Shown here: positions 143-4,176 of the stretch, piece after piece
Layout: each line of letters opens with the position of its first letter
Numbering within the stretch: position 1 is the stretch's first letter
Assembly (NCBI GenBank): GCA_001825395.1
Contig: MHWN01000019.1
Location: 1-50,198, forward strand
DNA from: Candidatus Zambryskibacteria bacterium RIFCSPLOWO2_02_FULL_39_26
Lineage (GTDB): Bacteria; Patescibacteriota; Minisyncoccia; Phycocordibacterales; DATDWN01
Reading direction: 5' to 3'
DNA length: 50,198 nucleotides
Position numbers and translations under genes: made by a program
Notes under the pieces: model-generated
What the model saw: only the letters and a program-made list of their open reading frames with translations
What the model was told of the DNA's origin: nothing
Database searches by the model: none

Positions 143-211
143 CAAAGCACGGTAGTTTATTCTTCTGAAAAAGCTCTCGAAAGGTCTTGCGAAAGTGCCC
201 CGCACTTTCGC

Positions 212-249
212 ACTCGTGAGGTCCATGGTTCGAACCCATGCACGCGCAC
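212..249 (+). repeat. Partial duplication of the 3' half of tRNA-Ile (38 nt identical to 106..143)
   Basis: actcgtgaggtccatggttcgaacccatgcacgcgcac is present at 106..143 and 212..249. Confidence 0.95.
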
Positions 250-2238: not shown

Positions 2239-2681
2239 AGTCTCGCCTGATACGTATAACAGACAACGAGGGTTGCGTTCGTTACCCCACTTAAGGGAAC
2301 AATTCAAATCACGAACTGACGACGGCCATGCATCACCTGTCCAACTGTCCTTGTGAGACGGCACACGTTTCTGCGTGCCTTCAGTTGGATTTCTAACCTT
2401 GGTAAGGTTCTTCGTTTATCATCGAATTAAACCACATAATCCACTGCTTGTGCAAGTCCCCGTCTATTCCTTTGAGTTTTAACCTTGCGGTCGTACTACC
2501 CAGGCGCCGAGCTTAACGCGTTAGCTTCGTCTCTCAGAGGGTCGATACTCCGAAAAACCAGCTCGGAAAGTTTAGGGCGTGGACTACTGGGGTATCTACA
2601 TACGTGTTACTTCTTTCGAAGACCACTGTACCCAGTATTACAGATGGATCTCTATGTCGCCATAGAGGTCGGACTATATCA

Positions 2682-3404
2682 TTATCTTAATGTAAACTGT
2701 CGCAACGAATATGTTTCTTTTGGATTATGGTAGGAATCTATCATTTTTTCCAGAAGTTTTTGTTTTTCAATGTTCGGCCAGAATCGTGATGTGTGCGTAA
2801 TATGCACACCATCAATAAATCCGACTTTTTGATAAAACTTTTTCATATTTTCTTTGTCTCTTATTTTTACTTTACCATCCCCTGCATCACAGGCTGTAAT
2901 ACCTAGTGATTGGAGGAGAGTGATATATTCTTTTCTGAGCTTTGGATGAGCACAAGCGAGATAGACTCCACGAATCAGCCATTTAGCTTCATCTTTTTTA
3001 GTCTTTCTCCGTGCTACATACAAACTCACTCCACCATCACAACTAAATGCTGATTGCAAGAATTCTTTTACGACGTTATGTCGAATAAGTTCTTCAATTG
3101 GTAACTTAGTTTTAGGAAGCTCGCCATTTTTATACCGAAGTGTTCGGAATGTTCCAAACTTTTCAGTAAATAATTGACCTGCTTCTTTTGAATCAACGAT
3201 CGCTCGATGGAGTCCGTCAGAAGTCATGTCCAAACGGACACGATTTTCTGGTAATGCAAATTCTTGCATTATAGACTCTTTGAAAATCGAAACAAGTCGC
3301 TGTGATTTATTGGAGAAGTAGAATCGCCAGCTGTTTCTGCCTTTCGGCGACAAACAACCGTCGGTAAAAATAAGTCCAAGTAATGTTGCAGTAGTTTTGT
3401 TCAT
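2682..3404 (-). CDS. LAGLIDADG-type homing endonuclease-like protein
   Basis: LLGLIFTDGCLSPKG and FLQSAFSCDGGVS double motif; located in group I intron. Confidence 0.9.
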   Translation of the reverse strand: MNKTTATLLGLIFTDGCLSPKGRNSWRFYFSNKSQRLVSIFKESIMQEFALPENRVRLDMTSDGLHRAIVDSKEAGQLFTEKFGTFRTLRYKNGELPKTKLPIEELIRHNVVKEFLQSAFSCDGGVSLYVARRKTKKDEAKWLIRGVYLACAHPKLRKEYITLLQSLGITACDAGDGKVKIRDKENMKKFYQKVGFIDGVHITHTSRFWPNIEKQKLLEKMIDSYHNPKETYSLRQFTLR

Positions 3405-3515
3405 TAAGATATTCGGCGTTTAGTCTCTGAGGGGTCAATCAAGCACTAATTTTTGGAGTCAAGATAATACTTGACAATAATAGTAGTCTATGTTATTCTG
3501 TTAGTCGGAGGTGAC

Positions 3516-3635
3516 CATGACAGACACAAAGAATTTTGCCGAGTCCTTGGAAGGAAAGGGTCTCACACCGCAAGAGAAAGCTGTCCTGATGAAACAGGCT
3601 GGACTTCCCTACGATGAGAATTCTCCCAAAAGGTA
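3516..3635 (+). CDS. 39-aa peptide MTDTKNFAESLEGKGLTPQEKAVLMKQAGLPYDENSPKR
   Basis: TTGACA-N17-TATTCT promoter, GGAGGTGACC-ATG, terminator gaggttgtgtcgttccgacacaacctc downstream. Confidence 0.6.
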
Positions 3636-3707
3636 GCCTGGCGGATGCTTTGGAGCGACGTATCGCGCGACTCGCGATTATGAAGCTTTAGGCCAGGCGG
3701 TTCTCGA

Positions 3708-3744
3708 GAGGTTGTGTCGTTCCGACACAACCTCTTATTCTTTT
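3708..3744 (+). terminator. Rho-independent terminator in the cassette
   Basis: gaggttgtgtcgttccgacacaacctcttattcttttt. Confidence 0.75.
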
Positions 3745-4176
3745 TCCAAAAATTAGTGCTTGATGACTTCCCTGCTGATTGCCTGCACTCAAAACATTTT
3801 CACTTACTTAATAATTATACTAAATAAGTAGTCTGAGATACACAGGTATTCCAGCATACAGCCAAATTCTCATTCCGACGTCACCGTCGGAAGGGACCAG
3901 ATCGATCCCATTCGCTACCCACGCTTTCGTGTTTCAGTGTCAGGAGTGGCCCAATGAACTGCCTTCGCTTTTGGTGTTCCCCATGATATCAACGGATTTC
4001 ACCCCTACTCCATGAGTTCCATTCATCCCTGCCATCCTCTAGCTGTGCCGTTTCAATCGCACTTCCGAGGTTAAGCCTCGGGTTTTAACAATTGACTAAC
4101 ACTGCCACCTACACACCCTTTACGCCCAATGATTCCGGATAACGCTCGGGGCACTCGTATTACCGCTGCTGCTGGC

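Follow-up and report, generated by a model that had tools for sequence, protein, structure and literature searches.

The window, by which we mean the whole 50,198-nt stretch of DNA analysed, codes for rRNA on the − strand, and its 16S gene is interrupted by a predicted self-splicing group I intron, S788, that runs from 3904 to 2599 (Table 1). By blastn, the flanking exons match E. coli 16S with the break between 788 and 789; the 5′ exon ends in GGGAT and the 3′ exon begins with TAGATACCCC. The intron has the features of a group I intron, with the Q, R, and S core motifs in order, a 3′-terminal G, and a conserved rRNA insertion site. Rfam Intron_gpI gives a partial match at 2650–2844 (E 5e-5) with a score below gathering, and this low score probably reflects, in part, two inserts that interrupt the intron. 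A 240-aa endonuclease ORF is located between R and S, on the P8 side, on the sense strand, and downstream of the segment described below; its relatives in three other S788 introns (L026, L027, and L028) are 61–66% identical. The intron is variable within the genus, with an uninterrupted 788 site in three congeners. A contig binned as Methylococcaceae (CAIPPE010000259.1) is 87% identical to the 16S gene and S788 endonuclease of the window and is probably a misbinned Patescibacteria contig; the contig does not include the P6 of its intron. Elsewhere in the window, the 3′ part of the 16S gene contains an AT-rich insertion bounded by a stem (2088–2236, −), in which no intron motifs were seen and which could be an intervening sequence, and the 3′ half of the upstream tRNA-Ile (70–143) is present as a second copy at 209–248 (+), a pattern as left by integration or duplication.

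Table 1. Features of the S788 intron and of the segment inserted in its P6, in window coordinates.
Feature	Position	Strand	Basis
Group I intron S788 (predicted), 16S position 788	2599..3904	−	flanks against E. coli rrsH by blastn: between 788 and 789
LAGLIDADG_3 homing endonuclease, 240 aa	2682..3404	−	Pfam E 1e-8
R element CCCCTCAGAGACTA, 3′ border of P6	3421..3434	−	sequence; same motif family in census
Left arm, 20-bp inverted repeat, P6a helix	3438..3457	+	pairs in fold
Sigma-70-type promoter, TTGACA-17-TATTCT, TG before −10 (extended −10)	3471..3499	+	10/12 consensus matches
Shine-Dalgarno GGAGG, 5 nt before ATG	3507..3511	+	sequence
ORF39, 39 aa, MTDTKNFAESLEGKGLTPQEKAVLMKQAGLPYDENSPKR, ATG at 3517	3517..3636	+	translation; codon score
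ORF25, 25 aa, MRILPKGSLADALERRIARLAIMKL, +1 frame, overlaps end of ORF39	3614..3691	+	codon score unremarkable
GC-rich dyad gcctgg...ccaggc, 3′ untranslated structure	3636..3698	+	sequence
Intrinsic terminator, 14-bp stem (3706–3736) and T tail	3706..3745	+	consensus match
Right arm, 20-bp inverted repeat, P6a helix	3745..3764	+	pairs in fold
Q element AATCAGCAGGGAA, 5′ border of P6	3768..3780	−	sequence; motif common to other census introns

The segment at 3438–3764 lies exactly between the Q motif AATCAGCAGGGAA and the R motif CTCAGAGACTA, which is the position of P6. An earlier note on this DNA had described the segment as a cassette of inverted-repeat arms, promoter, GGAGG, ORF, dyad, and terminator, and all of these parts are present. 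Promoter and terminator were called as matches to consensus. ORF39 is located on the strand opposite the rRNA and inside an intron loop, as an antisense rRNA-intron gene would be, and is putatively expressed from its own promoter. The T tail of the terminator is on the + strand only, so no terminator faces the rRNA polymerase. Comparison of the dyad and of the cassette sequence with Rfam gave no convincing match. The arrangement is not random. Specifically, the arms match at 20 of 20 positions as an inverted repeat. Terminal inverted repeats reached at most 10 bp when the segment was shuffled 20,000 times by dinucleotides, and no shuffle combined a Shine-Dalgarno (SD) sequence, an ORF of at least 35 codons, and a promoter with at least 10/12 matches. 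Counting both strands, the entire window has about four places with a promoter followed by an SD sequence and a frame of 35–100 aa, indicating that the signature is rare there and not background.

Comparison with other introns at the same site reveals that P6 is either empty or differently filled. Three further S788 introns (L026, L027, and L028) were found via endonuclease relatives, and a motif census added more. The flanks assigned 16 introns to S788, and among these the P6 interval is shorter than 60 nt in 8 and 167–335 nt in 8, including that of the window; the other 7 long intervals hold unrelated inserts of 167–236 nt. The P6 of L028 is a short hairpin. In L026, perfect arms of 24 bp enclose a different insert of ~150 nt, and in L027 imperfect arms enclose yet another; neither of these two inserts (~150–170 nt, with long arms) has a convincing ORF, and that of L027 resembles a structured RNA and matches nothing in Rfam. 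The S788 intron L032 (genome G228), in which no endonuclease was seen, has a long P2-side stem and two SD-led small ORFs in separate loops, one of 50 aa upstream of Q and one of 60 aa in P6.

To survey P6 inserts more widely, we searched for the Q motif GACAAYCAGCAGGRAA in class, phylum, and order samples of Patescibacteria (387, 384, and 358 genomes, overlapping; about a thousand genomes), fetched and read the matching loci, and added loci found earlier; because a single exact Q motif was searched for, this census is not exhaustive. It comprises 231 introns: 89 with a P6 shorter than 60 nt, 49 with a P6 of 60–400 nt, 71 with a P6 of at least 400 nt (endonuclease-sized, and not annotated singly), and 22 in which no R was found. 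In the 49 inserts of 60–400 nt, we counted ORFs of at least 35 codons that start with ATG and are preceded by GGAGG or AGGAG. Ten such ORFs are present on the sense strand, versus 0.27 expected from shuffles (maximum of 4 in 300 shuffled sets). On the antisense strand, an SD-led ORF with a promoter is present in two inserts, those of the window and of L148, versus none in 300 shuffled sets; across all 231 introns, the remaining antisense SD-led ORFs have no promoter. The ten sense ORFs, of 57–86 aa, occur in both 16S and 23S introns (L032, L042, L051, L057, L078, L095, L099, L100, L149, and L221), and two more SD-led sense P6 ORFs, of 83 aa (L101) and 87 aa (L248), fall outside the limits or the list. 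The sense P6 proteins that were compared with Pfam and PHROGs had no match above threshold. The P6 ORFs of L099 and L100, from two genera, are 58% identical with a dN/dS of about 0.35, a small sample that points to translation and selection of some P6 cargo. The P6 proteins of L032, L057, L149, and L248 have, by eye, a common loose pattern, F-x-A-x-x-D-x-x-A followed by a V/L-rich strand, and are perhaps one small fold. We conclude that the P6 of Patescibacteria rRNA introns serves as a cargo site for small genes.

The second antisense case, L148, is a 23S intron in a genome of another class (G611), inserted between E. coli positions 2087 and 2263 (blastn). Its P6 carries, on the antisense strand, the promoter TTGACTTACTTTATACTTTGTGCTATATT (TTGACT-17-TATATT), AAGGAGG, a 41-aa ORF, and a terminator with a T tail, all bounded by 15-bp perfect arms. 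The 41-aa product, MSQKARNTHLLYGLLIYGFFGTCLMVMFSAIARGCYSMYFR, is hydrophobic, perhaps with one membrane helix. The contents of the two cassettes have no recognisable homology, although their arms have ATTTTTGGA in common. That both promoter and terminator of the window cassette are antisense, and that the same architecture recurs in L148, bears out the claim of an antisense gene cassette within an extended P6 of the S788 intron. Both antisense ORFs (2/2) have a promoter and a terminator, whereas the sense ORFs have neither (0/10), a split expected by chance in 1 of 66 cases. Sense cargo would need neither, because the rRNA transcript already includes it and because a terminator on the sense strand would cut the rRNA, whereas antisense cargo has to start and stop its own transcription. 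We conclude from these two examples that antisense P6 cargo is carried as a transcription unit complete in itself. An invertible cassette, flipped by recombination between its arms, was considered, as cargo is known in both orientations, and was dropped because the sense cargo is without promoter and terminator.

The frame of ORF39 has the highest codon score of the six, a score equalled by 2.3% of shuffles. The overlapping ORF25 scores no better than shuffles (34%) and is probably not coding; the idea of a longer protein truncated by a frameshift, raised by the protein-like appearance of this +1 frame, was dropped on this score. ORF39 has no match in Pfam (E ≤ 1), in PHROGs, or among phages and plasmids, and the Pfam search, which found no LAGLIDADG, GIY-YIG, HNH, or His-Cys domain, excludes a homing endonuclease. 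The earlier note had looked to conservation of the ORF in related genomes, which is nearly absent: ORF39 has one weak relative among 60 nearer genomes and none in the 387 genomes of the class sample. The relative is a 62-aa ORF in genome G051 that has GGAGGTGA and a hairpin downstream and matches at 12/29 residues (E 0.005); the kinship is suggestive only, because this E value is per genome and 61 genomes were searched. No relatives of the G051 protein were found within its own family. ORF39 is nearly an orphan, without a clear family.

This near-orphan status, together with the strong structure formed by dyad and terminator and the perfect complementarity of the transcript to the intron, is what would be expected if the + strand unit yielded an antisense RNA in place of a protein, either pairing with the P6 loop to control splicing or surviving as a working promoter and terminator around a decayed ORF. 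We consider this improbable. The ideal, correctly spaced GGAGG and the best-scoring frame of six point to a protein, L148 likewise combines GGAGG and an ORF with promoter and terminator, and SD-led ORFs are frequent among sense P6 inserts; moreover, an RNA acting in trans would presumably compete with abundant rRNA transcripts.

The arms of the cassette continue the P6 helix. Directly beyond their outer ends, GTC and GAC are paired with a single bulged T, and the helix carries on into the arms; at the same place in the neighbouring 16S intron of the window, GTT pairs with AAC next to a bulged T, followed by CTCTTT paired with AAAGAG. In the − strand fold of 3430–3775, the arms are paired end to end (z = −9.4), giving a P6 helix of ~23 bp. 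These observations agree with the proposal that the inverted repeat can form an extended P6, and the neighbouring intron, with a 23-nt Q–R interval, is a sibling with a short P6 hairpin, as had been proposed. Other introns have perfect arms of 18–24 bp that differ in sequence and in contents, and the length of P6a varies among S788 introns. Occurrence of the same arms without the cassette would assign them to the intron only; compared by reading, the arm sequence is absent from the other S788 introns examined.

The same arms could be taken for the terminal repeats of a small MITE-like transposable element that brought the mini-gene into P6, and a perfect 20-bp terminal repeat around internal cargo, with 9 bp (ATTTTTGGA / TCCAAAAAT) common to the arms of the window and L148, has that appearance. 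The case for such an element is poor, and less probable still than that for an antisense RNA. The cassette is single-copy in its own genome, on which ground a repeated mobile element was dropped, and no copy of the cassette intron was found in 11 congeners. No target-site duplication or direct repeat is seen, and the flanks GTC/GAC pair as P6; of the marks of a MITE, the cassette has only the terminal inverted repeats, which P6a explains. The arms pass directly into the conserved pairing of P6, like the corresponding stem of the sibling intron; unrelated 18–24-bp arms enclose unrelated contents in other P6 inserts, and the 9-mer common with L148 is a weak match (BLAST E 0.5). The exact arm 17-mer has 5 matches in viral contigs, about the chance level expected for a collection of such size. 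Because the arms extend the conserved P6 pairing and fold end to end, they are best read as the lengthened P6a of the intron itself, and because P6a length varies, unrelated arms occur elsewhere, and the cassette is single-copy, they are not likely to be the ends of a mobile cassette. Finally, a chance gathering of promoter-, SD-, and terminator-like motifs and a short frame in a structured, non-coding P6 insert, for which one might cite the shortness of ORF39 and the inserts of L026 and L027, without convincing ORF at the same site and between long or partial arms, is extremely improbable in view of the shuffles, the order of the signals on one strand, the second case in L148, and the lack of promoter or terminator in all ten sense cases.

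We therefore favour, as the probable explanation, an S788 intron with a P6 lengthened to ~23 bp whose loop holds a self-contained small gene, antisense to the rRNA, as cargo. On the rRNA strand, the segment would be passive: the arms would pair and the contents of the loop would project from the tip of P6, leaving the core of the ribozyme free to fold and splice. On the + strand, RNA polymerase would start at the extended −10 promoter, the GGAGG-led mRNA would encode a charged, soluble-looking peptide of 39 aa, and transcription would stop at the terminator before leaving the P6 stem. Sense cargo would ride the rRNA transcript, needing only a ribosome-binding site. That the gene is expressed and translated, that the ribozyme tolerates it, and that the host or the intron gains from it are inferences. 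The rRNA operon is normally the most heavily transcribed in the cell, and the cassette raises the question of how a gene is expressed head-on within it. One speculative answer, to which we give little weight, is that antisense P6 cargo is gated by rRNA synthesis, with head-on rRNA polymerases silencing the cassette and the cassette being on when the operon is quiet; if so, the intron would be a growth-state switch.

rRNA introns are usually described as empty or as carrying a homing endonuclease. An autonomous-looking antisense gene and about a dozen non-endonuclease P6 genes suggest that these introns also carry small proteins, host or selfish. A survey of rRNA insertions in CPR bacteria (J Bacteriol 2024, PMC11270868) concerns the same kind of intron in the same host group and, in the parts consulted, classes ORFs by Pfam domain and reports LAGLIDADG_3 in 16S inserts; small P6 ORFs without a domain are not described in those parts, and the word antisense is absent from its main text. 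Among the open-licence papers searched, we came across none that describes P6 ORFs other than endonucleases, or antisense units, in the rRNA introns of bacteria.

P6-loop ORFs are known from phage group I introns, for example T4 td with I-TevI (PMC3073962). As in the S788 cassette, the td gene occupies the P6 loop, flanked by Q and R, with the ribozyme core outside. The td ORF, however, encodes a homing endonuclease, lies in the sense orientation, and extends into the core, whereas the S788 cassette encodes a 39-aa non-endonuclease, is antisense, has its own promoter and terminator, and is closed by 20-bp arms. Antisense homing endonuclease genes are known from eukaryotic rDNA group I introns, namely Didymium S956 and L2066, whose authors discuss interference of such genes with rRNA (PMC9548176). 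These genes, like the S788 cassette, lie opposite the rRNA strand and are thought to be driven by a separate promoter. They are His-Cys endonucleases transcribed in a eukaryotic nucleus; the S788 cassette, in contrast, belongs to a bacterium and has a terminator as well as sigma-70-type and Shine-Dalgarno signals. It lacks an endonuclease domain, and the endonuclease of its intron is a separate sense ORF. The view that an antisense gene in an rRNA intron is unusual thus needs qualification, since eukaryotic endonucleases provide precedents; what is new is the bacterial host, the non-endonuclease cargo, and the self-contained unit.
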